Below, in pieces: positions 546-63,957 of a stretch of 64,000 nucleotides of DNA. This DNA is from Luzula sylvatica (taxonomy: Eukaryota; Streptophyta; Magnoliopsida; Poales; Juncaceae). The DNA lies in NCBI GenBank assembly GCA_946800325.1, contig OX326958.1, positions 10,364,001 through 10,428,000 on the forward strand. The letters run 5' to 3'. The position numbers were made by a program, and so were the translations under genes. Numbering within the stretch: the first letter of the stretch is position 1; every line of letters begins with the position of its first letter. A model generated the notes under the pieces. It saw only the letters and a program-made list of their open reading frames with translations. It searched no databases and was not told the origin of the DNA.

Positions 546-699
546 GACACCGGAGAAAGAAAGGATGCGAGCGATCAACCCGTCGTGCGTGATCAATTTC
601 ACGCTGGTAATCGTCTATCCTTCTACTGCATCGTACCCTCGAAGTCATGGCGTGATCTTAGATTTTGGGTTTAGACATCAATTTTACCACATATTAAAA

Positions 700-3296: not shown

Positions 3297-3627
3297 TTTT
3301 AAGATGAAACTGCACTCATTTGAGACCAAATAGGAATGTGTCTAAATTCGGAAAATGTGTTTAAAACGCGTATACTATACGATGGACTAACTATGGAGTC
3401 TTAAAAATGAGTTTTGTTAGCAATTCTGTTTTGTCAAGTTTCTACACAGATACTACTAGTTCAAATTGAACAGATTTGGTTAGTAATCCTTCCCTCTCAG
3501 TTTATCTGTGTAGTACAAAAACTAATCATCCCAAGTCGCATTTGGTATTATTCTTTTTGTTAATTTTATATGTACCATTCCATAACATCAAAAAAATTCC
3601 TCGTGATTTTCAACTTCAGAATTCAAA

Positions 3628-4367
3628 ATGGAAATAGAGAGACAGAGGATTTTTATTATCAAAGCGTTCTTGGTACTGTTTTTGTCAATACTGGCCGTAA
3701 AAGGTGGCATCAGTACAGGTTAGTAATATTAATATTAAAAAAAATTTATTAGCTTTTATCTTTAACTAGTTTTTTCATGTTTTTGTATATTATAAAAAAT
3801 CTCTATTTTTTATTTTCAAATATTCTCCAATGGATGATATTGAAAGAAAATCGGCCAAATACCCTTCAATTTTAAGAAATTAATAACCATCAAGTTTTTA
3901 ATAAAAAAAAGCACATTAGAAATACAATGTAAAAAAATATCTATTTAAACATCAAGTTTTTAATTTTCGTTGTCATTTTATTTTTGTAATAGTTTCATGA
4001 TTTTGTTTTTTTTTTAAATGTTTACAACGTGTTCTTTAAGTATTAAGTTCATCTTATTATGATTTTGTTTTAGGTCTTCAAGAAAAAAATGTAAAATTCA
4101 AATATATGTATAAGGTATTATATAAATGTAACATATAATATTTTTCAATTATTATGTGCTAAACAAATTAAGATTTTTTTAAATATTAAAAAGTTTGTGT
4201 TGTTCATTTAATAAAACTAATTATTTATTTGAACTTTGTACTTCTTTTCGAATCAATTGTAACAGAAGAAGTGAGAGTACCCCTCCGCCAAACCCAAAGA
4301 AAATCTCCTATCGCTGAGATTATAGGATTTATTGCCTCGCTGGCCCTAGGGTGTACCCTATTGTGAG

Positions 4368-4452
<85 letters not shown>

Positions 4453-4527
4453 GCGCGAATTATGTTTTATGTGGACAGATTTGGAGAGCATAACACCTCA
4501 GAACCGAAGGACGTATATATCACTATG
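3628..4527 (+). pseudogene. Membrane-protein gene, copy 1: exons 1-3 only
   Basis: Three exons can be read with canonical introns: 3,628-3,718 (ATG, donor GTTAGT), 4,266-4,362 (acceptor CAG, donor GTGAGT) and 4,479-4,527 (acceptor ACAG, donor GTGATA). Codons split across both junctions join in frame. The product begins with a basic start and a hydrophobic stretch (residues about 9-25) resembling a signal peptide or membrane anchor. Exon 2 encodes a second hydrophobic stretch (about 48-64). Exon lengths 91, 97 and 49 are identical in copy 2 at 50,716. Exons 4-6 are missing because the sequence runs into LINE-1 about 30 bases after exon 3. The family is not recognised. Confidence 0.6.
4371..4451. 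repeat. (TC)n microsatellite in intron 2
   Basis: About 80 bases of TC dinucleotide follow the exon 2 donor of membrane gene copy 1, ending in a short GCGCGC stretch. Copy 2 has a shorter tract at 51,450-51,487. It forms the pyrimidine tract before the exon 3 acceptor. Confidence 0.95.
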
Positions 4528-4559
4528 GTGATAATGGGTACTTATTTTTAAATTTTGTA

Positions 4560-5390
4560 ATTGCACCACTAAGGGGGATGAGTCAACGGAACCATTATGG
4601 CGGATGTGGATACCAAGGTACCGCTCTTTTGTCGCGGCAATATTTGCACCTAGCATAGACAAAATTTCTTCTTTGGAGGCTTCGGGTACGTTGCGACTAA
4701 ACTAAACCTTTGACTTGGATGGATTGAGACATTAGCCGGACACCAATTCAAACGAATTAAAGGCCTCATTTATGCGCATCACTTCGAGTGGGTTAGCCGC
4801 GGCGAAAACGGTCACATCGTCCGCATAGAGAGAATGGTTGAGTGGGGGGGCCGAAAATGCAATTTTAATGCCACTTATATAGTTAGATACTGTCACAAAA
4901 TTCAAAGACCGAGAAAATACACCCATTCCAAGAATGAATAGATATGGCGATAAAGGGCAACCTTGTCTCAATCCACGACCGGACTTGAAAAAACCATCAC
5001 CTCTACCGTTGAGCAAAATAAAAAATTTAGCACTTGCCATACATGCAACAATGAGACATATAAGGTGAGGATGGAAATTATAGTGATATAGGATATCTTG
5101 TATGTAATCCCAACTCATACGATCAAATGTCTTTGATAAATCCGCTTTAAGTGCAAGGGAGGGATTTGAGAGGTTTGTTTGGCTAAAGGAATGGAGTACC
5201 TCCTTGAGGATACTTATATTATCCGAGATTAATCGATTTGGGAGAAAGGCATTTTGTTCGTCAGCAATCATCTTCATCAAGAACGGCTGAATGCAGTTAA
5301 CGATAATTTTGGCAATAATTTTGTGAACGGTATTTAACACGCTAATTCGTCGGTAATCGGTGACGATTGCGAGTCATCAATCTTCGAGAT
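4560..5390 (-). pseudogene. LINE-1 ORF2, reverse transcriptase domain
   Basis: The longest open piece (5,340-4,732) shows the RT blocks in order: an NAFLPNR region, LKADLSKTFDR with the first catalytic Asp, a GLRQGCPLSP block, and the catalytic box YADD. Past an in-frame stop near 4,710 the frame continues with the SGQCLNPSKS block and a YLGIH block. It stops at the junction near 4,560. This polymerase would copy element RNA into DNA at a nicked genomic site. The C-terminal part of RT, the zinc knuckle and RNase H are absent. Confidence 0.85.
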
Positions 5391-19604: not shown

Positions 19605-20565
19605 AATCGCTCGCTAAAACCATCGAAAATCGATGTTTTATTTCGAATTTAGGAAATTTTAGAATTTTTGGGCTAAATTGCAAAATTACAGATTGGATCT
19701 GTTGAAAATTGGATTTTCGGAAAAAAAAAAAAAAAAAAATTGGATTTTCGGAAAGAAAAAAAAAATGCCAATTTATAAATTCGATTCGGTATAGCATATA
19801 GCCTTAAACGGGGATGATTGTCTGTGAATGCTTGTATGTGTGTTGTGTGGGGGCCGGTGAGCTTTCCAAATTGTATTTTATTTAAATATGTGGGGACCGG
19901 TGAGTCTTCCAAAATTGTAATAAAATAAAATAGGTTTAGTTTTGAAGAGGGACCTTCAAGGCAAGACAACACGACACGGAGATTGGATCTTCAAAGCAAG
20001 GAATCATCTTGGGTTTTAGGATTGGGAATTTAGGGTTTTATGATTGCTCATAAAACTAAAAGGCCAATATGCTATACCGTAATATTTTATTTGGTTTTGT
20101 GAATGAATACAATAAATGATTTTATTAAAAGAAAAACCTCCCACGTAATTATCAAGTTATTTGCCTCCCAAAGTGGAACCTTCGAGACTAGTATTTGTTT
20201 ATTTGTGTTGCATGGCCATAGTCTGGCACAGATTTACACGTACGTAGCAAAGAAGGCCTACATTGATTAGGAGTTGACATGTTGCATGGCCATAGTCTGT
20301 CATGTCAATTCGCTGATTGAATGATACTCCACTTGTGGTTTGGACTTGACCAATTCGCTAGCAAGGCTAGGATTTGGGGCAAGGAGTGAGGTAGACACAC
20401 TCTGGTTTTGAGTTGGACTCAATACCGGACCTCACGAATAAAGCAAGAATCGTCTTGGAGATGATTGGACACCGTCCTACCCGACGTGACGTATTTTCTG
20501 AGTGGTTGGCCAAAGTCACCTTAGAAATACGTTAAATAGGGATCTTGTCGAAAGATTTAGATCAA
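19605..20565 (+). other. Non-coding 5' internal region of element B
   Basis: Where a Copia element normally encodes the N-terminal two thirds of gag, this 960-base stretch has no usable frame. It holds two runs of A (19,720-19,770), a duplicated 'gtggggaccggtgag' segment (19,848-19,912) and the phrase TTGCATGGCCATAGTCTG twice (20,208 and 20,280). A related phrase recurs at 25,976 near the other end of the element. Confidence 0.7.
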
Positions 20566-21234
20566 ATGACCGTTGATGAATTGGCAGGTTCACTCGAGGC
20601 ACACGAGCAGCGAAAGAAAAAGAAGGAGAACGAGGCACACCAAGAAGCACTGCAAGTCAAGGCGACCATAGATGAAGACAAGGCGATGTACGCTGAGAAC
20701 AATCGAGGAAGAGGACGCGGCCGTGGAGGTCGATTTGGTGGTCGAGGCAGAGGCGGAAACTATAATTCCGAAGAAAAGAAGCAACCGAATCAGCAAAATT
20801 GGCGCGGCCGAGGGCGAGGTCGTGGACGAGGAAGCTGGTCGAGTCGAGCAAGTGTCGAGTGTTACAACTGCGGCAAGCCTGGACATTACGCGAAGGAGTG
20901 CTGGTCCGAGAAAAAGGTAAAAGAAAATGCCAACCTAGTAGAGAAGGAGGCAAATGATGGTGTTCTCATGATGGCTCACAAAGACACCACATCGGAGAGC
21001 GATACAATCTGGTACCTCGACACCGGCGCAAGCAACCACATGTGCGGGCACAAACAACTTTTCGTAGAGATGAAGGAGCTAGACGATGGGCACGTGTCAT
21101 TTGGAGATGCGTCAAAGGTCCAAGTAAAGGGTAAAGGTAAAATTCGATTCTATCAGAAGGATGGTAAAGAAGGACATATCGAAAATGTCTACTACGTGCC
21201 TGAGATGAAGAGCAACATAATCAGCATGGGGTAA
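20566..21234 (+). pseudogene. Element B/A: gag C-terminus and protease
   Basis: The first ATG is at 20,566; an in-frame TAA lies upstream at 20,533. The protein has the 'TVDELAGSLEAHEQR' segment usual at the end of the Copia gag core and an Arg/Gly-rich stretch (RGRGRGG). A CCHC zinc knuckle follows (CYNCGKPGHYAKEC, near 20,862-20,903), then the protease with active-site D-T-G in WYLDTGASNHMCG (about 21,012-21,050). A TAA at 21,232-21,234 ends the frame; the next codons continue the same reading frame. The N-terminal gag domain is absent. Confidence 0.88.
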
Positions 21235-21237
21235 CTA

Positions 21238-22014
21238 TTGGAGAGAGGATACTCGGTCTTCATGAAAGATCGAACGATGCAGCTGAAGGACGATCGAGGT
21301 CAATTGGTTGCACGTGTTGAGATGGCGAAGAATCGAATGTTCAAGCTCAACCTGAGAAGTGTTCAGAGAATGTGCTTACGAGTCGATATGGAGGACAAAT
21401 CTTGGCTCTGGCATTTGCGGTTTGGACACTTGCACTATGGAGGCTTGCGAGAGTTGGCCAAGAAGGACATGGTGCACGGTCTGCCAGATATGGACTACAC
21501 GAGCAGATTTTGCGAAGGTTGCGTACTCGGTAAACATGCAAGAGTCCCATTTCAGAAGAAGGTGAAATATGAAGCAGCAAACCCTCTCGAGCTGGTGCAC
21601 ACCGACATTTGTGGTCCGATCACACCGAAATCGTTTAGTGAGAAAAGGTATTTTATTACATTCGTTGATGATTACACTAGGAGGACCTGGGTTTATTTTT
21701 TGAAGGAAAAATCCGAGGCATTCGAAGTGTTCAAGAGGTTCAAGGTGCTTGTCGAGAAGATGACCGGGCGATACATCAAAGCTTTGCGGTCAGATAGAGG
21801 CGGTGAGTACACGTCAACCGCATTTACGAGCTTTTGTGAGGAGCAAAGGATTAAGAGATTCTTGACTGCGCCATACTCGCCTCAGCAAAATGGTGTGGCC
21901 GAGAGGAAGAACCGGACCATTCTCGACATGGTTCGATCGATGTTGAAGAGCAAAGGAGTGCCAAAAGAATTTTGGGCCGAGGTGGTACAGTGTGCGGTGT
22001 ATGTACAAAATTGA
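21238..22014 (+). pseudogene. Element B/A: GAG-pre-integrase and integrase core
   Basis: Continues the same frame after the stop. It has the HLRFGHLHYGGL zinc-binding pre-integrase segment with a CEGCVLGK pair, then the catalytic core: D in VHTDICGP, D in LRSDRGGEY and E in QQNGVAERKNR, the complete DDE set. The integrase would insert the cDNA. A TGA at 22,012-22,014 interrupts the frame, but coding continues directly after it. Confidence 0.88.
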
Positions 22015-22023
22015 TGTCCTCAT

Positions 22024-22386
22024 GTGAAATTAGGCGAGAAAACACCTCAAGAAGCGTGGAGCGGCATGAAACCGACGGTGTCGCATCTCAAGGTGTTCGG
22101 AAGTGTGGCATATGCACATGTACCAGATCAAAGGAGGGCGAAGCTCGATGATAAAAGCAAGAAGTTCGTGTTCATTGGATATGACGAGAAAACGAAGGTA
22201 TACAAGTTGTACGACCCAATTGAAAGAAAGGTTGTGGTGAGTCGAGATGTTCATGTGAATGAGAAGAGCGCATGGGACTGGAGTAAGAAGTGCGAGATGG
22301 ACGATGAGGACGACGAGTCAGACGAGTCCGAGAAAGAAGAATCCTCAGCTACTGTACCGACTAGCCCCGCAATACCTGATGAATAA
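22024..22386 (+). pseudogene. Element B/A: integrase C-terminal region
   Basis: Same frame again: a TPQEAWSGMKP block, a HLKVFGSVAYAHVP block and a KFVFIGYDEKTKVYKLYDP block typical of the Copia integrase C-terminal domain. An acidic Glu/Ser/Asp-rich linker to RT follows. A TAA at 22,384-22,386 is the third in-frame stop, with coding again continuing beyond. Confidence 0.85.
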
Positions 22387-22851
22387 GACGAGCCGAGACA
22401 GACGCGCACAAGGAGCCTACAAGAGCTATACGATGCAACCAGTGAGGTACATATTGTTTGTCTTTTGGCAGATGCGGAGAATATTTCCTTTGAAGAAGCC
22501 GTGAGAAACAAGAAATGGAAATCCGCGATGGATGAAGAGATTGGGGCTATCGAGAAAAACAAGAGGTGGGACTTGGTCGAGTTACCAAAAGGATGCAGGC
22601 CCATAGGAGTCAAGTGGGTGTACAAGAAGAAGATGAATGCTCAAGACGTGATTGAAAGGTACAAGGCTCGATTGGTGGCGAAGGGGTATCGGCAACAGGC
22701 CGATATTGATTACGATGAGGTTTTTGCTCCTGTTGCGAGAATGGAGACGATCCGACTTCTCATATCTCAAGCAGCTCAATTCAAGTGGTCGATCTATCAG
22801 ATGGACGTGAAATCAGCATTTTTGAATGGCGTGCTCGAAGAAGAAGTCTAT
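22387..22851 (+). pseudogene. Element B/A: reverse transcriptase, N-terminal part
   Basis: The open stretch contains the Copia RT opening: a W-K-S-A-M-D-E-E block, [32 protein letters not shown] and [11 protein letters not shown] with the first catalytic Asp. It ends at a VY pair where the solo LTR is inserted. After that LTR the frame resumes at 24,308 with PPGYV. Confidence 0.88.
22847..22851. repeat. Target duplication TCTAT, left of the solo LTR
   Basis: TCTAT here and at 24,303-24,307. Removing the LTR and one copy rejoins RT in frame. Confidence 0.9.
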
Positions 22852-24302
22852 TGATAACAGGTTTTTGGCTAACACTTATGTTATATCGTTGAATAAAAAC
22901 ACCGTAAATCAAACAAGAAACATGTGAATACTAAAGATTGTATAGACTAAGTATGTAAGGATTCTTTAAAATAATTATTTCGAAGTTTCCAAAATTAATG
23001 AAAATTTGTCTAGAGAGAGGTCTGAATATTATAAAACTTATCCTAAAATTTCAAACAATTTGGACAACGGAATAAAAAGTTATTAACGAATTACAATCAG
23101 GTCTCTGAAAAACAGTCTCTGGAAACAGCAGGTTTTCAGTTTAAGTGACAGTTTTCAAAAATTCATATCAGTTCAAATATTTCATGAAATTCAACGATTC
23201 CAAGTAATTTAAAAATATTCAAAAAGTAATTTAAGTGACTGTTTTAAAAACAAGATTCAAGGGCAATCAAGGCAGTAATTTAAATAAGAAAATCGAATTA
23301 ACTACTAAAATTCTCGAGTTTATTAATCAATGCAAGAAATATTCAAAACAAACACAACCAAAAGAATTAAAGTAAAAGAAGGGTAACACCTATGCAAGTC
23401 CTAGAATGCCTAGAACTCGTTGTCGATGATGCCCCGTGAACCCGGCTAAACGCTAGCTCGAATTTCCGTCTTCTTCTACGTCGATCCTCCCGAATTGCCG
23501 AAGAACGCCTTCCGCAATATGATAGATCTAGTTCGTGTCGAGGTGGAGCAAGCACGCCTTCCTCCAAATCTTCACGTTGCACTCCTAGAGTTGAGAACAC
23601 CTCCACCCAAAGAACGGCTCTTGAAGATTTACTCTTTTCGGTTGTATTCTTGAATTTCTGGATGAGTTTGTAGAGAGAGAGAGAGTCGAAAATATGATGA
23701 TTTGGTCCTGACCAAGGGGTCCAATTTATAGGTTTGATGGTGTCTTCTGATTGGTTGAGGGAGAAATGGAAGGTTTTGGGCAGAGATTGTTGCCCCTGTG
23801 GGGCTGTGAAGGCAACAAATCAGCAACAAATCAGCAACAAATCAGCTAAGAAGGCAACAAATCAGCTCTAAAGAAGGCAAAGAATCTTCGTTTCCTGTGG
23901 GGCTGTGAGCTGTGGGATGCGAGCTGTGGTTGGGCTGTGAATTTCGCCATTGTGGCCAGTGCTGGGTCTGTGGATTGTTGCCCCTGTGCGCTGCACCGGT
24001 AAGGGTCTGCATTGCAACGCTTTGGTGATCTGCTTCTTTTGTTTTTACCTTTCCCACCTTGATCTTTTACCGAATGTATCGGTATGATATATCGTTTTGA
24101 CTGTCTTCAGTGTTTCGGAGGCACTGGTGCTGACCAAATTTCCAAGTTAGCCCTCTATTTCCTGAAAATGGCCAAAGAACACATTAGTGTAGAAATATTC
24201 ATGATGTTTGAAATATGTATTATAAAAGCATAGAATATAGTTCCACAAGGGCTAAAATCCCTAAATAAGATTCTTAAATCGTGCTCTATTTCCCTCACAT
24301 CA
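22852..24302 (-). mobile_element. Solo LTR (~1.45 kb) inside the RT of element B
   Basis: TG...CA ends (TGATAACAGG and ...CACATCA on the plus strand) are flanked by the perfect TCTAT duplication, with no internal region. A TATA box CCTATAAATTGG is read on the minus strand (23,719-23,730), followed by a CT-rich leader, so the LTR probably points left. Length and leader suggest a Ty3/Gypsy family. It arose by recombination between the two LTRs of a full element. ORFs inside it are not recognised. Confidence 0.88.
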
Positions 24303-24307
24303 TCTAT

Positions 24308-25482
24308 GTCGAGCAACCACCTGGTTACGTGAAAGCTGGAAAAGAAGGAAAGGTGTTGAAGTTGAGAAAGGCATTGTACGGGCTCAAACAGGCACCTCGA
24401 GCATGGAATACCCGAATCGACACATACTTCAAGAAGACCGGATTTGTACAATGCCCATACGAGCATGCATTGTACGTGAGAAAGAAGGAAAAAGACGTGT
24501 TGTTTGTTGCTCTCTATGTTGATGATCTGATTTTCATGGGGAGTAATGAGAAGATGGCGAAGGAATTCAAAGAAGCGATGACGCGAGAATTCGAGATGAC
24601 AGATTTGGGTCAGATGAAATACTTCCTTGGCCTCGAAGTTAAACAAGGTGAGTCAGGAATTTTTGTATCACATGAGGCGTACGCGAAGAATATTCTGAAG
24701 ATGTACAAGATGGAGGACAGCAACCCAGTGACGACCCCGATGGAGCTCGGTGCGAAACTCTCTAAATTTGAGGGAGGAGACAGAGTTGATCCGAGCAAAT
24801 TTCGAAGTTTGGTTGGGAGTTTGCGGTACCTTACTTGTACTAGGCCCGACATTGCGTATAGTGTTGGGGTGGTGAGTCGATTCATGGAGGAACCGAGGCA
24901 TTCACACTGGAAAGCAATAAAAAGGATTCTTAGGTACATTCGAGGTACGGAATCACTCGGGCTATACTACTCGAGGACGGACGAATACAAGCTGGTGGGC
25001 TACTCGGACAGTGATTGGTGTGGAGATGTTGACGATCGAAAAAGCACAGCAGGTTATGTGTTTTACATGGGAGATACTGCGTTTACGTGGCTTTCGAAGA
25101 AACAACCAATAGTGACGCTATCGACGTGCGAGGCGGAATACGTGGCAGCATCGTGGTGTGTGTGCCATGCGACATGGTTAAGGAATTTGTTGCACGAGTT
25201 GAAGATGACGCAACATGAGGCGACTGAGATACGAGTCGACAATAAATCTGCAATCGAGTTAGCAAAGAATCCGGTCCATCATGAGAGTAGTAAGCACATT
25301 GATGTGCGTTTTCACTTCATTCGAGAGCAGGTGAAGAAAAGCGATATGCGAATGATTCATGTGGCGAGCCAGGACCAGGTAGCAGACATTTTCACGAAGC
25401 CGCTTCCGACAGCGCTGTTTGAGAACTTCAAGAAGATGATCGGGATGAAGAATAGGCTTGAGCTTAAGGGAGGAATTTGTTA
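24308..25482 (+). pseudogene. Element B/A: RT C-terminal part and RNase H
   Basis: The frame runs without a stop for about 390 codons. It begins PPGYV, then KALYGLKQAPRAW and the catalytic LYVDDLIFMG box (YVDD, near 24,519). A TDLGQMKYFLGLEV thumb block follows, then RNase H with SDSDWCGD, STCEAEY and DNKSAIELAKNP (Asp/Glu/Asp catalytic set) and the end region IFTKPLP. The terminal LKGGIC stop overlaps the polypurine tract and the start of LTR A at 25,478, as in autonomous Copia elements. Confidence 0.9.
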
Positions 25483-30500: not shown

Positions 30501-30789
30501 TTATTATTTATTCAACCCAATGAAATATATTTCGAACATAGTATTGGTCATGGTATTTGTTATTCATGAATGTGTTTGTGTCATGTCATATAGAGCTTGT
30601 TATATGATTATAAATTTCAATTACAATTTCATAACAATTACATCAATTACTATTATTGAATTATCGTGCCAATTGTTTCACATTTTTTCGTTAATCTCAG
30701 ATTTTCCTGTTATCTGTTCTTAGATATGTTTTCTTCATATTTTGGGGGAAAATCACCATCGATCGAGTTGGCACATCATGCTCGATATC

Positions 30790-31465
30790 GTAAACAGGAC
30801 CAAATAGAGGCATGACACCGCCTACTCCAAATCGTAAATGGGACCAAAGAGATTCACGACACCGCCTACTCGAGATCGTAAACGTGGACCTAATAAAGCC
30901 ACAACACCGCCTATTCGAGATCGTAAACGGGACGATATCGGGGCGAATGAGAGGCACAACACTGCCTACTCGAAATCATAAACAGGGCGAAAGAGATGCA
31001 CGACAATGCCTACTCGATATCGTAAACGGGAAGACAGAGAGGCACGACACACTGCCTACTCAAAATCGTATACAGGACGAAAGATAGGCACGACACCGCC
31101 TATCATATACGGGACGAAGGACAGGCACAACACCGTCTACTCGGAATCATATATGGGATGAAGGAGAGGCACGACACCGTCTACTCGAAATCGTAAACGG
31201 TACGAAAGAGAGGCACGACACCGCCTACTCGAAATCGTAAACGGGACGAAAGAGAGGAACGACACCACCTACTTGAAATCATAAACGAGACGAAAGAGAG
31301 GCACGACACAGCTTACTCGAAATAGTATACGGGGCGAAAGATAGGCACAACACCACCTACTCGGAATCATGTACAAGACGAAGGAGAGCCACAACACCAC
31401 CTACTCGGAATCATATACGGGACGAAGAAGAGGCACGATACCTCCTACTCAAAATTGTAAATGGA
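30790..31465. repeat. ~43-bp minisatellite, block 1
   Basis: About 16 degenerate copies of a unit such as GGCACGACACCGCCTACTCG followed by AAATCGTAAACGGGACGAAAGA. Spacing between successive CCTACTC landmarks is mostly 43-46 bases. ORFs across it are repeat artefacts. Confidence 0.9.
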
Positions 31466-31649: not shown

Positions 31650-31885
31650 CACCACTGGAAATCGTAAACGGGCTCAAAAAGAGAGACGGCATGCCTATTC
31701 AAAATCATAAACGGGGCCATAGAGAGGCACGACACCGCCTACTCGAATTCGTAAACGGGTCCAAAAGAGGCACGACACCGCCTCCTAGAAATCGTAAACA
31801 TGACCAAAGAGAGGCACGAAACTACGAATTCGAAATGTAAACAGTACAGAAGACATGCATGAAACTGCCTACTCGAAATCAAAAG
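31650..31885. repeat. ~43-bp minisatellite, block 2
   Basis: About six more copies of the same unit in the same orientation, separated from block 1 by about 190 bases that include the copy 1 direct repeat. Confidence 0.85.
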
Positions 31886-42404: not shown

Positions 42405-43605
42405 AATTCTTGCCTTTTTCTTCTAATCTGTATATGGTTGATTACCGTCTTTTAGAACTGCTATTTTATCGTTCCTTTTGTGGTTGGTCGCAATCTGATG
42501 AAAATAAGCTGTATTTGTATCTCCATGTAATATCCAATTTTTCTTTGATCACTGTTTCCAAATTTCTTTCTCTTTCTTACTCAGTTCAGTTCCCGGAATC
42601 TTGCTTTTATTTTTGCTTGTAACCATCTTTCTGCCATAGTGATCGTCCTCTCTTCTTGATTCTTGTCCAACCAAATTAAAGTTTGTTTGCATATACCGAG
42701 TTGTTGGTTGATATCCATATTCTTTCTCGACTCCACTCCTTAAGTTTTTTTGGTAGTAATGTTAACTTCCTATCTAGATCTTTGATTTTTCTGACCTGTA
42801 TGGTATTCCAATGCTCCATTACTATTTGGTCTATCTCCTTGTATTTTAGCCAGTAATTTTCTAATCTAAAGAAATTTTGTCTCAAAAAGGTGGTATGAGC
42901 AGTATAAATTAATGGTGTATGATCAGAAGATGTATTGGCACTGGCCACTAGCTCTGAATTTTGATGAGAAGTAGACCATTGATTTGAGATGAGAACCCTA
43001 TCCAATCGTGACATTGTTTGCGCCCTTCTCCATGTAAATTTTTGACCCATGAGCGGCTGATCTATCAATTGGACATCATTGATACAATCTCTGAATTTTG
43101 CCGACGCTCTCCAGTCATATGTGGCACCCCTTCTTTCGTCTTGATTTAAAATCACATTAAAATCACCTAGTACCATCCAGGGTTAATTGTCTGTAGGCTT
43201 TAATGATCTTAGTTCCTCATAGAATTCATGTCTGCGTGCTCGTTAATTCGGGCCATAAACACTTGTAATCCATCTTTTTGATTGATCCCATTTACATTGT
43301 AATTGGATAGATATTGAGTAAGTTCTTTGAATTGCTCGCACCTTAGTGAACATTGCATCTCGCCATCCTACCAGAATTCCTCCCGAGGCTCCATTAGCTT
43401 TTAGGTAATCATACTCATTTATAATCCCCCCACATATTTCTCTCCGTATAGATTGATTTATTACCTCCATCTTTGTCTCTTGTAGGCACACTGTTTGTGG
43501 TTTCTCCAATGTTATATTCTTCCTTATTTCTATCCTTTTGTTCTTGTCATTTAAACATCTTACGTTCCATGTCAGGATCTTTAATTTTCTTGTTTTATCA
43601 ATCAT
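42405..43605 (-). pseudogene. LINE-2 ORF2, endonuclease and linker
   Basis: The start at 43,605 leads into KILTWNVRCLND (catalytic Asn), VCLQETKME (catalytic Glu) and ITSVYGPN. After a break near 43,243-43,176 come VLGDFNVIL (catalytic Asp/Asn), a KFTWRR block, MSRLDRVLIS and the SSDHTPLI catalytic His block. From 42,676 to 42,405 the linker is decayed. The nuclease motifs are unusually well preserved for such a broken element. Confidence 0.82.
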
Positions 43606-47149: not shown

Positions 47150-50100
47150 ATCAATTTTGACATATATTAAAAATATTATAATTGATTTTTTCGAAGGATA
47201 GATTTCCCATTTTGTTTTGTTTCAATTTTTTTGATTAATATAATAGAAATTCCATCAATTTTTGTGTTTTTTTGAGGAAAACATCAAAATTAACTATTAT
47301 GTTCATTTTAGACATCGATTTGATCATATATTAGAAAATATGAAAATTAAGTATTTTGCTTATTTCAGACATCAATTTGGTATTTATTACAAAAATATTA
47401 TAATTAGTGTTTTTGAAGATGTTAGACTTCATTTTTTTTTTCATTGTTTCCAAACTTTTTTAAAATATAATAGAAATTCATATGTGTTAGTCTTCAATTT
47501 TTGAGTTATTTTAGAGGAAAACATGAAAACTAACTATTTTGTTCGGTTTAGACATCAATTTTACCACATATTAAAAAAAAATATGATAACTGATTTTTTT
47601 TAATGTGTTAAACTTCATTTTTTTCATAATATGAGGAATAAGTGAAAAACATCAAAATTTGCTTATATTAGTCTTTAATTTAGGAGTTTTCTTGGAAAAC
47701 ATGAATATTAAGAATTTTGTAAATTATATACATCAATTTTGGCATATATTAAATAATATTATAATTGATTTCTTCGTGATAGACTTCACATTTTGTATTG
47801 TTTCAACTATTTTGAATAATATAATAGAAAAATTCACATGTGTTAGTCATCAATTTCCACATTTTGTATTGTTTCAACATGAATATTAATATATGCCAAA
47901 TTTTATTTCTAAAATGAACGATGTAATCAATCTTCATGTTTTCCAACAAAAACCTACAAAATTGAAGACTAACATAAGCAAATTTATATGTTTTTCCAAT
48001 ATTATCGAAATTATTAAAAAATTGAAGTCCAACACCTTAGAAAATCAAATGTCATATGTTTTTAATATACGCTAGAATTTTTTTTCAAAACGAACAAACT
48101 ACTTAATTTTCATATTTTCCTCAAAAAGAACTCCAAAATTGAAGACTAACACATGTGAATTTCTATAGCGTTAATAAAAAAGGTTGTTAAAAATGCAAAA
48201 AGTGAAGTCTAATAACGTCAAAAAAATAAATTTTAATATAATTTTAAAAAATTCCTAGATTGAAATATAAAATTAACAAAATAACAAATTTTCAGTTTAT
48301 GCTAAAAAGAACTCCTAAATTGAAGACCAACACATGAGAATTTCTATTTATTCAAAAGCATTGCAAAATGAAAAGAGTGAAGTCCAACAACTTCAAATTA
48401 TCGAATAATATATTTTTGTATTAAATGAAAAACTTTATGTCTAAAATGAACAAAAAAACTTAATTTTCGTATTTTACTAAAAAAAAATTCCAAAATTGAA
48501 AACTAACATAAGCAAATTTTGATTTTTTCAAATATTGGTGAAATTATGCAAAATGTGATTTCTATCACCTTCAAAAAATTCAGTTATCATATTTTTTTAA
48601 TAAATGGAAGAATTGAATTCGGAAACGAACAAAATACCCTATTTTCATGTTTTCCTCAAAAAAAACTCAAAAGTTGAAAACTAACACGTCGGAATTCCTA
48701 TTATTTTTTCGAAAAAGATGAAAATATGCAAAAAGTGAAGTCTGACACCTTTAATAAAATATTCCAATATTTTCTTAACAAATACCAAATTTGATTTCTA
48801 AAATGATAAAAATAATTAATTTCCATGTTTTCCTACAAAAAACTCCAACATTGAAGAATAACATAAGCAAATTTCTATGTGTTTCCAATATTTCCCAGAT
48901 TATGCAAAAAGTGAACTCTAACACTTTAAAAAATCAAATATCATATTTTTTTAATATATGCTTAATTTATTTCTAAAACGAACAAACTACTTAATTTTCA
49001 TGTTTCCTCAAAGAGAACTCCGAAACTGAAGACTAACAAATGTGAATTTATATTATCAATTCAAAAAGGTTGTCAAAAAATACAAAAAGTGAAGTAACGA
49101 CTCTATAAAAATAAATTTTAATATATTTGTAATAAATGCAAATATTTAAGTCTAAAATGGTCATAATACTTAATTTTCATGTTTTCCTAAAAAGAACCCC
49201 AAAATTGAAGACTAACACATGAGAATTTCTATTACTTTATTCAAAAAATGTTGAAAAAATGCAAGAAGTGAAGTTTAACAACTTAAAAATATCAAATAAT
49301 ATATTTTTGTAATAAATGAAACAATTTATGTCTAAAATGATCAAATACTTAATTATCATATTTTCCTAAAAGAACTCCAAAATTCAAAGCTAACATAAGC
49401 AGATTCCGATTTTTTAAAATATTTGTGAAATTATGCAAAAAGTGAAGGCTAACAACACCTTCAAAAAAATTAATTATCATATTTTTTTTAATAAATTGAC
49501 GAATTTATTTATGAAACGAACAAAATACCTTATTTTCATGTTTTCCTCAAAAAAAACTCAAAACTTAAAGACTAGCACGTGTGAATTCCAAATATTGTAT
49601 TCAAAAGTTGAACAAATGTAAAAAGTCTAACACCTTCAAGAAAAAAAATAATACTATTTTGTAATAAAATTCCCAAATTTATGCCTAAAATGAATAAAAT
49701 ACTTAATTTTCATGTTTTCCTACAAAAACTCCAAAATTGAAGACTAGCATAAGAAAATTTTGGTGATTTCCTAACATTTCGCAAATTATGCAAAAAGTGT
49801 AGTCTAACACTTTAAAATAAATAAATATCATATGTTCTTAATATATGATAAAGTTTATGTCTAAACCAACAAAATACTTAATTTCCATATTTTCCACAAA
49901 AAGGACTTCAAAATTGAATATCAACACATTCGAATTTCTATTATTTTATTCAAAAAAGTTTAAAAAATACAAAAAATGTAGTCTGACACGTTCACAAAAA
50001 TAAATTGTAATATTTTTGTGCTAAGTTCAAAAATGTATGTCTAACATGAACAAAATACTTAATTTTCATGCTTTCCTAAAAAAACTTCAAAATTGAAGAC

Positions 50101-50385
50101 TCGCATAAGAAAATTTCGAAGTTTTTTCAAACAGTTCTTAAATTATTCAAAAGTGAAGTCTAACACCTCAAATAAAATAAATTCTAATATTTTTTTAATA
50201 AATGGAAAAATTGATGTCTAAAAGTAATAAAATACTTAATTTTCAAGTTTTCCTCAAAAACCTCAAAAATAGAAGATTAACACATGCAAAAATCTATTAT
50301 TTTATTCAAAAAAATTGAAAAATACAAAAAGTGAAGTCAAACGAAAATTGATGTCTAAAATGAACAAAATACGTAACTTTTATGT
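47150..50385. repeat. AT-rich 177-bp satellite array, copy 2
   Basis: Same monomer as 700-3,296, again forward up to about 47,880 and reversed after it. The flanks of the turning point ('gccaaattttatttctaaaatgaac') are the same in both copies. Compared with copy 1, about 0.7 kb of the forward block is missing and the reverse block is longer by several monomers, consistent with unequal exchange. It leads directly into the duplicated membrane gene. Confidence 0.85.
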
Positions 50386-50715
50386 TTTAAGATGAAACTG
50401 CACTCATTTGAGACCAAATAGGAATGTGTCTAAATTCGGAAAATGTGTTTAAAACGCGTATACTATACGATGGACTAACTATGGAGGCTTAAAAATGAAT
50501 TTTGTTAGCAATTCTGTTTTGTCAAGTTTCTACACAGATACTACTAGTTCAAATTGAACAGATTTGGTTAGTAATCCTTCCCTCTCAGTTTATCTGTGTA
50601 GTACAAAAACTAATCATCCCAACTCGCATTTGGTATTATTCTTTTTGTTAATTTTATATGTACCATTCCATAACATCAAAAAAATTCCTCGTGATTTTCA
50701 ACTTCAGAATTCAAA
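50386..50715 (+). repeat. Duplicated 5' flank of the membrane gene (pair at 3,299-3,627)
   Basis: Nearly identical to 3,299-3,627 base for base, starting AAGATGAAACTGCACTC. It probably includes the promoter and 5' UTR, but no convincing TATA box was seen. Confidence 0.85.
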
Positions 50716-51447
50716 ATGGAAATAGAGAGACAGAGGATTTGTATTATCAAAGCGTTCTTGGTATTGTTTTTGTCAATACTGGCCGTAAAAGGTGGCATCA
50801 GTACAGGTTAGTAATATTAATATTAAAAAAAAATTATTAGCTTTTATCTTTAACTAGTTTTTTCATGTTTTTGTATATTCTAAAAAATCTCTATTTTTTT
50901 ATTTTCAAATATTTCCCCAATGGATGATATTGAATGAAAATCGACCAAATACACTTCAATTTTAAGAAATTAATAACCATCAAGTTTTTAATAATAAAAA
51001 AAACACATTAGAAATACCATGTAGAAAAATATCTATTTAAACATCAAGTTTTTAATTTCCGTTGTCATTTTATTTTTGTGTTTTTTTTTAAATGTTTGCA
51101 ATGTGTTCTTTGAGTATTAAGTTCATCTTATTATGATTTTGTGTTTGGTCTTCAAGAAAAAATGTAAAATGTAAAATATATGTATGACGTATTATATAAA
51201 TGTAACATATAATATTTTTTAATTATTATGTGCTAAACAAATTAAGATTTTTTAAAATATTAAAAAGTTTGTGTTGTTCATTTAATAAAACTAATTATTT
51301 ATTTTAACTTTGTACTTCTTTTCGAATCAATTAATTGTAACAGAAGAAGTGAGAGTACCCCTCCGCCAAACCCAAAGAAAATCTCCTATCGCTGAGATTA
51401 TAGGATTTATTGACTCGCTGGCCCTAGGGTGTACCCTATTGTGAGTT

Positions 51448-51449
<2 letters not shown>

Positions 51450-51487
<38 letters not shown>
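51450..51487. repeat. (TC)n microsatellite in intron 2, copy 2
   Basis: About 38 bases, half the length of the tract in copy 1 (4,371-4,451). Confidence 0.95.
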
Positions 51488-51488
<1 letters not shown>

Positions 51489-51562
51489 ATTATGTCTTAT
51501 GTGAACATATTTGGAGAGCATAACACCTCAGAACCGAAGGACGTATATATCACGTTGGTGAT

Positions 51563-52047
51563 GATTATTATATACATAGAAACATATCGCGGACCACGTC
51601 GACGACTCGCACGTATGAATCATAAACTACATGCAATTACCTATGAATATAACTATTATATACATAAAAACATACTATGTGAAATTGATCAAGGAAACAG
51701 GTTGTTCACTTAGTTGCTTTCTTGTTTGCTCGCTTCGATTCCGGTGACACGCACGTCTCACGCCTGCGCGATTCGACACCTAATTCGAAGCTCCTTTGTC
51801 GTATACAACCGGAATTGCTCCGGTTCGTCTCCGACCTTGCTCGACCTTGCTCTCGATTGATCACAAGAATCTCAGTTGAGATTCCTCTACTCGTATCCAC
51901 CTCGAGCTCGCATCTTTCGGTTGAGGCAAATTCCCCTAAAATTCAAGATATTATACTCGGTCTTCGTGCACTTTTAGCATCCTCTTTCTCTTTTCTACAC
52001 TCTTTATACATATACAAATATAATGCGATTAAAAAGTTTCAACTATA
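51563..52047. mobile_element. ~485-bp insertion in intron 3 of copy 2, LTR-like
   Basis: Aligning copies 1 and 2 shows extra sequence between 'gtgat' and 'aatgggtac'. It contains TTGATCACAA and CTCTACTCGTATCCACC, resembling the minus-strand LTR F (TTTGATCACAAACG, CTACTCGTATCCACC), so it may be an LTR fragment. The phrase 'aaaaagtttcaactataaat' occurs at its right edge (52,031) and again at 52,112. Confidence 0.5.
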
Positions 52048-57919: not shown

Positions 57920-57924
57920 AGATC
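57920..57924. repeat. Target duplication AGATC, left of element C
   Basis: Identical to 60,713-60,717. Confidence 0.92.
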
Positions 57925-58241
57925 TGTCATGACCCGAGGGTATACGTGTTATTAATAATAAATGAGGGGTTTACTTGCAAAATCCGCTTTCGGTTCACGA
58001 GGTGCATGATGCACCGTGTCTAGTTAATATTTTCCTTTATTATATTGTCGCATTATAAATAGAGAGAGAAGAGAGAATTATGGGATATTATTGATGTAAT
58101 TGTTTCTTCATGTAAGAATCAAGACATTGTCTCTTTATACTTTAATGAATCGAATTCGAATTCATTTAAAGTTTGTATCTTGATCTCATTTTATCCTAAT
58201 TTGAGGTTGTTTTAGTAACGATTCGAGGTTGAATCGTTACA
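57925..58241 (+). repeat. 5' LTR of element C
   Basis: 317 bases with TATAAATA at 58,054-58,061 and a short palindrome GGTGCATGATGCACC. Confidence 0.95.
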
Positions 58242-58243
58242 TT

Positions 58244-58255
58244 TGGTATCAGAGC
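58244..58255 (+). other. Primer binding site (tRNA-iMet) of element C
   Basis: TGGTATCAGAGC, two bases after the 5' LTR. Confidence 0.93.
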
Positions 58256-59129
58256 GACGATTCTCCGACCGTCACCACGCCTATCTCCTTGGTTCTTATC
58301 GGTTTCGAACCGATTCAGATCTGATTCACGGTGATTCTTCGATTTCTTGAGTTTCTCGATTTCTTGATTCTTGATTTGAATTCGATCCGACCTTCAATTC
58401 GAGCCAAATCAGATTTGATTCGCGGCGATTCTTCGATTCTCGAGTTTCTTGATTTGAATTCAATCCGATATTCCATTCGAGCCGATTCGATTCGTCGCAG
58501 CACACTCAGCGCCAATCGCCTATCCAAGACTCGAGTTTCGCTGATCCAAGATCTCTTTCTTCCCCAAATTCTCATCTAGGTTCGAAATTGAGTTGAAATT
58601 TTCTAAATTTGATCTTGTTTTCTCTGAAATTCGGTTCTTTCTTGATTGAATTGCGAGATCGAATGATCACTTGCACGATTCAGTCGATTTGGACCCAATT
58701 CTCGATTCGAAATCAATTCGCTGTTCTTCAGACCTTGCAAAACCGACGATCCAAGCCTTGGTAGAATCAAGCTTAGGGCTTGACAATTGTCCAAACGAGC
58801 CAAGCCAGCACCTATCGTCGCACGAAGAAGAAGAGTCGACCAGATGAGCCAAGCCATTTCCATCCCTTCCTCAATCGTGCGAGAAGGACCAAAATTCGTT
58901 GATTCACCAAGCTTCGCGTTCTTTTTCATCGCGTGAAGGAGGAGGAGAAGAAAGGGTTAGCGAATCCGGGTTCTTTTGATCCAACTAAGGTGGACTCGAG
59001 TTACTGGATTGTTTGTTCTGGTTTTTCAAGAAATCTGGATAAGAACACTCGGAATTCCATTTCCAACTCTGCTCAAAATCCAGAAAAGAAGGTCTGCAGC
59101 CAGTTACTGATTCTGTTAAGAAGCTGGAA
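58256..59129 (+). other. Leader region of element C
   Basis: Contains an imperfect duplication of about 100 bases built from GATTCTTCGATT, TTCTTGATTTGAATTC and ATTCGAGCC (58,320-58,500). A purine-rich GAAGGAGGAGGAGAAGAAAGG follows at 58,935-58,955. An open frame (58,933-59,133) precedes ORF 1 and overlaps its start by four bases, but has no known domain. Confidence 0.5.
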
Positions 59130-59990
59130 TTGAAAAGTCAAAATTCATATTCGAATTCTGTTAAGAATCCAGAATTGTTAACGGGTCTGATTTGTTTCTT
59201 AACGGGTCTGCGGATTGTTGAAACGTTTTGGGCCGATACGATGAGTAATAAAATAGTATATTTGTTGGATATTGTATATCCCGAATCATCGCATCGATTA
59301 ATTAAATTGGGGGAAGGAATCTATAAGGGGAAAAGTCGGTATTGGTGCGAAAAAGAAAATGCGGCCCATTATTGCGATGAAAGGTGTGATCAAAAGGTTT
59401 TGTATAATCGTGATTTCTCTCGGTGTAATGTGAGTAATAGATTATATTCATTATCTTGGGAGGAGAGACAAGCTATTGTAAGGTATAATCGAGAGAAAGA
59501 AATTGAGGAGAGGAACAAGATTTTTAACGAAATCATAAAGAAGATTGATCATATGTTGTCTAGAGTGAATTCGACTCAATTTTCTAGTGAAGTTAGAAGT
59601 ATCGATGATAAGTCGAATTGCGATGCAAATGAAGTGGATTCAAATGAATGGGAATCGGACTCGGTTGAGCGTGAATCGGATTCGGGCGTGATTGAAGCGG
59701 ATCCGGTTGAGCGTGAATCGGATTCGGGCTTGATCGAATCGGATTCGGGCGTGATTGAAGTGGATTCGGTCGAGCATGAATCGGATTCGGGCGTGATCGA
59801 AGCGGATTCGGGCGTGATCGAAGCGGATTCGGGCATGGTCGAAGCGGATCCAGTTGAGCGTGAATCGGATTCGAGCGTGATCGAAGTGGATCCGGTTGAG
59901 TGTGAATCGGATTCGGGTGCGCGCAAATCGGATTCGAAAAAGATTGAATCGGAGGACATAGTCGCAAAAAGCGAAATGACTATTCTTTGA
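59130..59990 (+). CDS. Element C ORF 1: 286-aa protein with acidic Ser/Asp/Glu repeats
   Basis: An intact frame. Residues 1-110 are mixed, with a Cys/His-containing segment (YWCEKENAAHYCDERC then a further Cys about 13 residues on) that could bind a metal. Residues 110-150 are charged and probably helical. From about 175 to the end it is a strongly acidic repeat of VERESDSGVIEAD-like units, encoded by 42- and 21-base DNA repeats (59,655-59,940). No gag, protease or polymerase motif is present. A later ATG at 59,238 could be the true start. It may be a divergent gag or a captured host segment; the function is unknown. Confidence 0.5.
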   Translation: MKSQNSYSNSVKNPELLTGLICFLTGLRIVETFWADTMSNKIVYLLDIVYPESSHRLIKLGEGIYKGKSRYWCEKENAAHYCDERCDQKVLYNRDFSRCNVSNRLYSLSWEERQAIVRYNREKEIEERNKIFNEIIKKIDHMLSRVNSTQFSSEVRSIDDKSNCDANEVDSNEWESDSVERESDSGVIEADPVERESDSGLIESDSGVIEVDSVEHESDSGVIEADSGVIEADSGMVEADPVERESDSSVIEVDPVECESDSGARKSDSKKIESEDIVAKSEMTIL

Positions 59991-59993
59991 AAA

Positions 59994-60383
59994 ATGCTCG
60001 AGTCGGGTACGATGCGATTAATATGTAAAACGTATGCGGATCCTTATTTGCATTTTAAGAGGGATAATTATCGAAAAAGCGTAAATGAAGATTTGAGAGT
60101 TTTGTGCGCATTTCAAGAAGGGCGGTTATCTTCATTCGAAACACGACTCAATGGAGGGCTCGACGACGAAGTGAAAAGGCCGCCTCCGAAACCGAATATA
60201 AGGTACGGTGTGGAATCTTCAAGGGTGGTGATTCGTGTCGGATTGAAAAGGCCTCCGCCAAAACCGAATATACGGTACGATGCGAAATCTTCAACGGTGG
60301 TGTTTCGTGTTATATTGAAAAGGCCACCGCCAAAACCTAATATAAATTTCGCACGTTTGATCCTTGAGGACAAGGATCTTTAA
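59994..60383 (+). CDS. Element C ORF 2: 129-aa protein with KRPPPKPNIRY repeats
   Basis: The frame begins three bases after ORF 1 stops and runs to a TAA at 60,381-60,383, just before the purine tract. After a basic N-terminal part it contains three copies of KRPPPKPNI(R/N)(Y/F) at about residues 62, 84 and 106, separated by 11-residue spacers resembling each other. Proline-rich repeats of this type are candidate protein-binding segments (inference). With element sequence on both sides and close spacing, the two frames probably share one transcript, perhaps originally one reading unit. Confidence 0.45.
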   Translation: MLESGTMRLICKTYADPYLHFKRDNYRKSVNEDLRVLCAFQEGRLSSFETRLNGGLDDEVKRPPPKPNIRYGVESSRVVIRVGLKRPPPKPNIRYDAKSSTVVFRVILKRPPPKPNINFARLILEDKDL

Positions 60384-60395
60384 AGGAGGCGGTAT

Positions 60396-60712
60396 TGTCA
60401 TGACCCGAGGGTATACGTGTTATTAATAATAAATGAGGGGTTTACTTGCATAATCCGCTTTCGGTTCACGAGGTGCATGATGCACCGTGTCTAGTTAATA
60501 TTTTCCTTTATTATATTGTCGCATTATAAATAGAGAGAGAAGAGAGAATTATGGGATATTATTGATGTAATTGTTTCTTCATGTAAGAATCAAGACATTG
60601 TCTCTTTATACTTTAATGAATCGAATTCGAATTCATTTAAAGTTTGTATCTTGATCTCATTTTATCCTAATTTGAGGTTGTTTTAGTAACGATTCGAGGT
60701 TGAATCGTTACA
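60396..60712 (+). repeat. 3' LTR of element C
   Basis: Starts TGTCATGACCC, ends GAATCGTTACA, followed by AGATC (60,713-60,717). Identical to the 5' LTR except one A/T change near 60,450. Confidence 0.95.
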
Positions 60713-62045
60713 AGATCCTAGATCAGGTGTGTTCTCGAGTTAGAAGGAGCGTTGAGGTGTTGGTGACAATGGAACACACTCAAGAGAGATCAATACAACC
60801 CTCTTCAAGAGCCATTTCAACCAAATTACCCAAATGTCCCTGGCAAGGGCATTTCAGATTTATTCAGGGGTTTTGCTGGAAAATTGAGCGTTGTCGAGAA
60901 GAATTGAGCACTCTACATCCTTTATTTACTCCTTTTAGACCCAAATATTGGTGGAGGAGCAATCTGAAGCCACTCTCTCACGCACTTAGGTGATTTCTTT
61001 CCTTGTTGGTATAGATTTAGGGTTTTAAATCTTGGTTTTGGTGATTTATTGTGTCGAACATTGTTATTTATGTTTAATATTGCTTAATTAATGATTACAA
61101 ACCTTTTTCACAATTTTCTGGATTTTATTTGAATTTATTACGAATTTTCCTTGTCATGAAACCCTAATTTCTGTTAATCACTGTCTGACTTTCTTAATTA
61201 ATTATAAAATTACTCATAATTGTTTAATTTCCACTTGATAATAATTCTTGTAGATCTTGATCTGTTCTTCAAATCCCTTTTTCAGATTTGAATTTGGAAT
61301 TTTGGTTGAATTGTTATTGATTTTTAAATTTCACTCAAAACCTAAATTCCAGTTTCCAGATTTTTGACCTAATTTCACAGAATTCGAATTTAAAGAACAT
61401 CTTCCTTGACAACTTTTAATTGATTTATGTATCGATCTGTATCAAACCAGTTAATTTATATTCAATATCAAACGATATATTATCAAACACTTTTTGAATT
61501 ATCTATTTTAGTTTTATTTTCCATTTTATATAGAATTTTGAATATCGAACTTTATACTCTGAATTTAGGACTTAAATGTAAAACTGTGTGAGTTGTTGTA
61601 TCTTTCTAAATTTGTGCGTGAATTGTAAAATATCTAGAAACCTTTTGATCAAACCAAATTCACCACTGTGTTGTACTAAGTCTATAATTCAATTATATAC
61701 CAGTATCATTTCATTTGCAGGTCTATATCTCAAGTTATTCAATTTTCAAAATAGTTCCAAACTAATATTGATTCGAAAACTTAACTGGATATTTTCACAA
61801 ATATGCCAGGGACTGTTTTGTAATTCCTTAATAACTTTTTATCTGAAAGTCTAAATTTCACAAAAATTGTACCAGACCTCATTTACATGATACTGAACAT
61901 AGTTGGAAAGTTTCATAATATTTCATAAAGTTTTGAATTAAATATTAATTTAATAGTGCATATATTCCTCGTGGACGATAACCCTATTTGTCCAATACTA
62001 CTTTTATCATAAAAATCTTTTGTTGTGCGAAAACGACCCTCAACA

Positions 62046-63957
62046 CACCTTTGTAGGAGATTGGCTCATCATCTAGAGTCAACTCATCATTGTCATTACT
62101 AATGAGAAATCCATATCTCTCAGGTTCTTGACGAGTCCTACCAGATCTACGTATAGCTTGTGTACTAGATCAACTTGTTCACTTTGTGGTTCTCGAATTT
62201 CTTCGAGATCAATTTTACTCCCACTGGCTTGACGATCTAGGAATTCCTTCTCTAAGAAGTGTCCTCGTCGAGCCACGAAAACCTTGTTTTCGCTAGGCAA
62301 GTAAAAGTAGTATCCTCTTGTTTCTTGAGGATACCCCACAAATAAACACTTGTCTGATCTTGGCTCGAGTTTTTACGTCAATAGTCTTTTGACGTATACC
62401 TCGCAACCCCAAATCTTAAAATAAGACAATAATGGCACCCTGCCATGCCATAATTCATATGGTGTCTTTTCAACATATTTGGACGGAACTTTATTCAGTA
62501 TATGAGCGGCCGTTTGAAGCGCGAAACCCCAAAATGACTTTGGCAACTCCGTTCGACTCATCATCGAGCGAACCATGTCTAACAAGGTCCAATTCCTCCT
62601 CTCAGACACTCCATTCCATTGGGGTGTACCGGGTGGAGTCCATTGTGATACTATACCACAATCTCGAAAATAGTCCTCAAACTCATAGCTCAAGTATTCG
62701 CCACCTCGATCCGATCGAATGGCTTTTACTTTCTTTCCCAGTTGAAGTTCTACTTCGTGTTGAAACTCTTTGAATTTCTCAAAAGTTTCACTTTTGTGAC
62801 GCACTAAGTATAGATAACCATATCTACTATAATCGTCAGTAAAAATCACAAAGTAGCGATACCCATTTCTAGCCTCGACACTCATCGGTCCACATACATC
62901 GGAATGTATGAGGGCCAACACATCTTTCGATCTTTCTCCTTTCTTGGAGAAAGATGTCTTTGTCATCTTACCCATCAAACAAGATTCGCAATTTTCTATT
63001 GACTCTAAGTCAAAAGAATCTAGCACTCCATCCTTTTGGAGTCTAGCAATGCGTTTCTCGTTTATGTGTCCGAGACGACAATGCCATGAGTATGTTTCAT
63101 TAGTTTGAGTAGTATTTATGTTATAAATGGACTGATTATTGTTGTTATTTTCTAAATCCAAGACATATAGACCATTTTCAACTAGAACATTACTAAAGAA
63201 AATGTCATTCTTGCGAATAAAACAATCATTAGTACCAATAACTAATTCATATCCATCCGCAATAAGTCTCGAAACAGAAATAATACTCCTACTCAAAGTA
63301 GGTACATAACAACAATTATCCAAAACTAAAATAAGTCCATTTGGCAAAGTTAAATCATACGTCCCTTCGGCTAATGCTGCTACTCGAGCTCCATTCCCGA
63401 CGCGTAAATCAACTTCGCCACGAATCAACGGTCTTCTACTTCTTAGGCCCTGCATATTATTACAAATATGAGTCCCACATCCAGTGTCCAACACCCATGA
63501 TGATGAAGTAAAGAAATAAGATTCGATAACGGAAATACCTGATGCCGGTGTGTCCAAGGAAGCGGTCTTTTGCTTGCTCTTCCTCAGGAAGATCTCGCAA
63601 TCACGCTTCCAATGCCTCTCCTTGAGGCAGTGGAAACACTTCTTGTCATCCTTTGCTTTCTTGCCCACGGGCTTAGGCGCAACCTTGTTGCCCTTTGCCT
63701 TCCTCTTCTTGTTTTTGTTCCCATTGCTTGGACTCTTCCCTTCAACCACCAATACTTCCGAAGTCCTAGACTTCATGTACCGCGGTTTCATGTCACTTTC
63801 GAATGTTCTGAGCATTCCGAAAAGCTGGGGAATGGTCCTTTGCATGTCTGACATGTGGAAATGCGAAATGAACGAATCGAAACTCGGTGGCAGTGACAAC
63901 ATGATCAAATCAGTTTGTAACTCCACCTCGAATTTCATGTCAAGCCTCTCAAGATGA
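62046..63957 (-). pseudogene. Copia gag-protease-integrase, minus strand, one stop
   Basis: The frame from 63,938 to 62,373 covers the end of the gag core, a Lys-rich stretch and a CCHC knuckle (CFHCLKERHWKRDC; the usual Gly is absent). Protease (WVLDTGCGTHIC) follows, then pre-integrase (HCRLGHI, CESCLMGK) and the integrase core with D (HSDVCGP), D (RSDRGGEY) and E (WNGVSERRN). After a single TAA near 62,375 the same frame continues to 62,079 (LFVGYPQETRGYYFY). RT is cut off by LTR D. It is the same family, or close to it, as the decayed Copia F. Confidence 0.88.

Follow-up and report, generated by a model that had tools for sequence, protein, structure and literature searches.

A recently inserted LTR element of Luzula sylvatica with one open frame split by a TGA

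Non-autonomous LTR elements are usually held to be non-coding or to keep gag, and LARDs are larger than 2.8 kb. LARDs and other non-autonomous LTR elements without gag-pol are named in passages of PMC10552921. The element that we describe here, which lies in a 64-kb stretch of Luzula sylvatica DNA (the window, meaning the whole stretch analysed), resembles LARDs in having LTRs, a primer site, a purine tract and no recognisable gag-pol, but it differs from them in being smaller (2.8 kb) and in having a long open frame. TR-GAGs, reportedly described originally by Chaparro et al. in 2015, are like the present element in being non-autonomous with a single sense coding frame. According to parts of PMC8704663, TR-GAGs carry gag as their only ORF and are non-autonomous, and transposition of one of them was observed in Arabidopsis ddm1. 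A TR-GAG is recognised by an intact ORF with a gag domain, whereas the frame at this locus has no gag domain, has no zinc knuckle in its first part and is split by a TGA.

Additional ORFs (aORFs) of plant LTR retrotransposons provide another comparison and are reviewed in PMC7264820, as far as its available sections go. In excerpts of PMC11728184, the 5' aORF of sunflower Tekay is described as about 400 aa long, largely disordered and proline-rich, and as lacking amino-acid similarity to the aORFs of grasses. The present frame is similar in specifying a low-complexity protein (here 249 aa and 129 aa, compared with about 400 aa in Tekay) with no similarity to known proteins. The likeness probably extends to structure, with a predicted helical part here and parts that, by composition, are probably disordered. 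In the sections of PMC11728184 and PMC7264820 that deal with them, published aORFs sit beside gag-pol, whereas the present frame stands alone. Furthermore, aORFs are marked by their presence and conservation in most copies of a family, whereas this frame is known from one copy.

Two further systems share single properties with the locus. In the portion of PMC11963269 that covers them, the ORFs between POL and the 3' LTR of Retand are described as running antisense, and TRP28 occurs in 97% of the clusters. Tandem repeats and ORFs of unknown function close to the 3' LTR are common to Retand and our element, but the present frame is in the sense orientation and has no Pfam match above cut-off. 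Revolver, as outlined in extracts of PMC2851119, is a plant element of about 3 kb that has introns and terminal inverted repeats, and its one ORF does not resemble known transposases; its size and single ORF are similar to what we find here, but Revolver is not an LTR element. A recently spread element whose orphan frame stands alone would raise the question of whether selection can act on non-autonomous LTR elements for a protein that they themselves encode, and it offers a compact setting in which to study the role of aORFs in plant retrotransposons. Should other copies show the frame to be unconstrained, the case would be ordinary.

Element anatomy and the split frame

The element spans 57925-60712 (2,788 bp) and is a recent insertion. 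Its LTRs are 317 bp each with TG...CA ends, located at 57925-58241 (5' LTR, + strand) and 60396-60712 (3' LTR, + strand), and they are identical at 316 of 317 positions. Copies of the TSD AGATC flank the element on the left (57920-57924) and on the right (60713-60717), and the 5' LTR contains a TATA motif, TATAAATA, at 58054 (+). The primer binding site TGGTATCAGAGC (58244-58255, +), which we take to be of the initiator-Met tRNA type, starts two bases 3' of the 5' LTR, and the purine tract AAAGGAGGCGG (60382-60392, +) ends three bases 5' of the 3' LTR. The locus thus has near-identical direct LTRs, TG...CA ends, a TSD, a primer site and a purine tract, all of them criteria for an LTR retrotransposon, and the near-identical LTRs with primer site and purine tract described in an earlier, sequence-only reading were borne out. 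The leader at 58242-59042 (+, about 0.8 kb) has no long open frame, and the leader fragments tested had no Pfam match above the curated cut-off.

Of the 28 internal open fragments of at least 45 aa, we scanned 20, the other eight being antisense, and found no Pfam match above the curated cut-off, whether to gag, protease, reverse transcriptase, RNase H, integrase or any other family. With the LTR identity, this supports the earlier designation of the element as young and non-autonomous. A blast search of the 64-kb window for a second copy or fragment at E <= 1e-3 returned none, the matches being the element's own LTRs and internal repeats. Elsewhere in the window, LINE-like reverse transcriptase and endonuclease fragments were recognised by eye at 4735-5373 (-) and 42679-43182 (-), and interrupted copia-like ORFs lie at 20536-25480 (+), their translations also judged by eye.

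The sequence-only reading reported two adjacent, intact ORFs. Both stretches exist, but they are a single stop-to-stop frame of 446 codons (59043-60383, +) with one in-frame TGA at 59988-59990 (+) and a TAA end at the purine tract. From the first ATG, the first part occupies 59241-59990 (+; 249 aa plus the TGA), and the second part occupies 59994-60383 (+; 129 aa from an ATG), a basic stretch with a pI of 10.0 compared with 4.4 for the first part. Only the TGA and one AAA codon separate them, and both are in the same reading frame. The first part had been given as a 286-residue acidic-repeat frame: the acidic repeats are there, but the length depends on a TTG start under the bacterial code, and translation from the first ATG (59241) gives 249 aa. 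The TAA (60381-60383) shares two bases with the purine tract, so that no gap is left between the frame and the last recognised site of the element. The closing residues LILEDKDL and the course of the frame through the purine tract (IFKGGGIVMTRG) may resemble the final part of pol in some plant gypsy elements.

The LTR divergence also bears on the age of the TGA. A single difference over 634 LTR sites scales to 3.4 internal substitutions since insertion and to 0.12 nonsense hits in the frame, and thus the TGA is more likely older than the insertion, a dating that rests on the single LTR mismatch. If the TGA came before the insertion, the element would have transposed with its frame already split, and the full-length product would not have been needed in cis.

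Taken together, we consider it on balance probable that the locus is a young non-autonomous LTR element, mobilised in trans, with one lineage-specific additional ORF that is split here, in the one copy known. Such an element would retain what copying requires in cis, namely the LTR promoter, the primer site and the purine tract, and would be moved in trans by the proteins of an autonomous relative. Its internal region would consist of the 0.8-kb leader followed by the additional ORF, reaching the purine tract. The protein would begin with an N-terminal domain whose helix is coiled-coil-like, continue with the acidic heptads and end in a basic tail rich in proline. In its split form the frame, if translated, would give a 249-aa product and the basic tail would probably be lost; we infer that its coding function lies in the past. 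Downstream of the TATA-inferred start, five ATGs precede the one at 59241 and open frames of up to 33 aa, which counts against this explanation.

Search for relatives and the origin of the frame

Among about 5.8 billion proteins, neither part had a relative at E <= 0.01; the candidates with shared words numbered 3,100 for the first part and 1,439 for the second. As a control, a neighbouring copia protein gave 4,235 relatives at E <= 1e-10 among 7,985 scored, and among the 120 matches listed most of those with an organism name were plants. Low-complexity proteins diverge fast, which would account for the lack of relatives of an additional ORF. A Ty1/copia piece lies near the window end (62373-63938, -), with Pfam matches to gag pre-integrase, the pol beta-barrel and the integrase core, and a metagenome protein is 94% identical to it over 75% of its length.

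Several weak matches were considered and set aside. PIP49_N (E 0.039 and 0.052) and TH_ACT, Matrix_Paramyxo_N, Mit_proteolip, TREH_N and Stereocilin (E 0.021-0.14) were all below their curated Pfam cut-offs and were taken as chance. Solved structures gave one match for each part (E 1.2 and 1), neither of them credible. Viral contigs contained no relative of either part and no match to the LTR-primer junction. The purine-tract pattern matched two viral contigs and the junction pattern matched one bacterial genome contig, each time in an open frame that, by eye, is unlike a plant element. A search of the titles and abstract starts of open-licence papers found no LTR element like the present one.

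The frame could have come from a captured host gene, that is, from a plant gene fragment transduced into the element and carried without function. Captures by LTR retrotransposons are reported in sections of PMC7264820, the sense orientation and the lack of recognisable gag-pol fit transduction, and the split frame fits a lost function. We nevertheless consider this origin unlikely, because the frame has no relative at a threshold where a plant copia protein finds thousands, because no Pfam domain scored above cut-off, and because the frame runs up to the purine tract, as would be expected of a last gene belonging to the element itself. The sequence-only reading had named a captured host gene as one option, and the protein search gave no match for it.

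A divergent gag of the TR-GAG type, in which the frame would be a structural protein past recognition, is quite unlikely in our view. The precedent is that of a non-autonomous element with a single gag ORF (PMC8704663, in the parts cited above), and both the sense strand and the position behind a leader fit it. A long helix of coiled-coil-like character is predicted for residues 73-112 of the N-terminal part, with blocks of ten residues reaching a mean pLDDT of 93 in a single-sequence model. The first 130 residues from the first ATG (pI 8.2, 5 Cys) have a mean pLDDT of 54.1, mostly at low confidence outside this one good helix, and the second part has a mean of 36.8, which is unusable; single-sequence models are too weak for judging a capsid fold. 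The gag reading proposed earlier is without sequence support, as there is no Pfam gag match and no CX2CX4HX4C (CCHC) knuckle in the first part. In addition, the acidic heptad region, with 38 D+E among 111 aa and a pI of 4.1, appears unlike a nucleocapsid. As for the remaining composition, 12 of the 13 prolines of the second part are within its 57-aa repeat region, and, in the first part, hydrophobicity over 19 residues peaks (mean 1.5) upstream of the first ATG.

Chance, codon usage and repeats

Simple repeats could have expanded in non-coding filler and been open by accident, which would make the frame a product of chance or of processes at the DNA level. The evidence is divided, and we regard this as quite improbable. 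Ahead of the repeats, 59043-59627 has 0 stops in frame compared with 14.1 expected, and the other five frames contain 6 to 25 stops. Dinucleotide shuffles of this stretch, which was picked for being open, left that frame open in 0/20,000 cases and any of the six frames in 2/20,000. Shuffles of 59991-60380 were open in the observed frame in 5/20,000 cases and in any frame in 443/20,000, and for 59991-60245, which is the second part with one repeat unit, the numbers were 119/20,000 and 2,985/20,000. The frame itself has 446 codons and one stop; simulated spans of 447 codons or more with no more than one stop occurred in none of 2,000 simulations under a non-repeat model, in one of 2,000 under a whole-internal model and in none of 2,000 under a flank model. 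With the repeats collapsed, the observed 338 codons with one stop were reached in 1 of 2,000 simulations.

In favour of chance, the non-repeat part is 196 codons long, and a stop-free stretch of that length was present at some position in 1.4% of 1,000 simulated internal regions; with 500 regions simulated under the same three base models, the rates were 3.2%, 9.2% and 0.2%. The second part, at 129 codons, was matched in this way in 31% of 1,000 simulated regions. As the three antisense frames of the heptad array are all open as well, the array adds little to the chance test. In most of the tests the frame, open but for one TGA, exceeds chance, the less favourable result being the 0.2-9% obtained in whole-region simulations. 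With moderate confidence, we conclude that the frame probably descends from a coding sequence.

Codon usage was trained on four copia pieces of the window. For comparison, 209 windows of 387 bp that lie clear of the training ORFs were scored, with the best of the six frames counting for each. The N-terminal stretch 59241-59627 scored -0.204, a value equalled or exceeded by 50% of the 209 windows, and is not coding-like; another frame of the same stretch, with 21 stops, scored higher (-0.045). This is a further point for a chance origin. The second part scored -0.001 as a whole and 0.025 before its repeats, both above the 99th percentile of the 209 windows (-0.006), and a held-out copia piece scored 0.069. 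The leader, which has no long frame, scored between -0.111 and -0.001 over its six frames, and thus the measure separates coding from non-coding DNA poorly.

The acidic repeats and the three KRPPPKPNI copies described previously are both present. The acidic units, sixteen as listed, are 21 bp (7 aa) long and of the ESDSGVI and EADPVER types, and they extend over 59631-59966 (+) with degenerate outer units. Among thirteen heptads, minority bases number 19, 19 and 13 at codon positions 1, 2 and 3, with no third-position excess. As far as its bases tell, the array is a DNA-level expansion with no protein-level constraint visible, which is in line with a chance frame. The KRPPPKPNI copies start at 60174, 60246 and 60318 within 60174-60344 (+), with a 72-bp period and a shortened third unit. 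Their four variable columns are all synonymous third positions. Between repeat units 1 and 2, the motif and the next codon have 4 synonymous and 0 nonsynonymous differences compared with 1 and 7 in the rest (hypergeometric 0.010), a test that is partly circular since the block was chosen for its identical residues. Over the whole 24-codon unit, 5 differences are synonymous (18.5 sites) and 7 are nonsynonymous (53.5 sites), which is no strong signal. For the retained function suggested by the sequence-only reading, then, the KRPPPKPNI comparison is suggestive, if partly circular, and the N-terminal codon usage speaks against it.

An element with a single accessory protein of its own is very unlikely. 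Such a protein would have an acidic half and a basic proline-rich half with a regulated stop between them, and it would favour the element's RNA in the competition for particles or enzymes supplied by an autonomous partner. If true, this would be a non-autonomous retrotransposon that codes without gag or pol. Two separate genes were judged unlikely, as both parts are common to one reading frame, and the earlier proposal of two partner proteins is likewise not supported. Two proteins from one RNA, the second made by reinitiation at the ATG (59994) one codon past the TGA or by read-through, are highly improbable: the differing composition of the second part and the purely synonymous variation of its motif would fit, but one nonsense mutation in a shared frame explains both parts at once, and the A that follows the TGA does not provide a strong read-through context.

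At 59652-59936 the heptad DNA (GAATCGGATTCG) is close to a palindrome, and the precursor models of five plant miRNAs match it weakly, with scores far under their cut-offs. Within the element, Rfam gave a single match at E <= 0.1, to MIR6459 (23.3 bits, compared with a gathering score of 100), and it was taken as chance because four other miRNA families weakly match the same near-palindromic repeat DNA; across the window there were no Rfam matches at gathering level. Tandem repeat arrays with a unit of about 178 bp (double unit about 350 bp) occupy 697-3254 and 47277-50342, each with inverted relatives beside it, and 1631-4535 is 87.6% identical to 48722-51565. Arrays with a unit of about 44 bp are located at 30781-31461 and 31654-31880.
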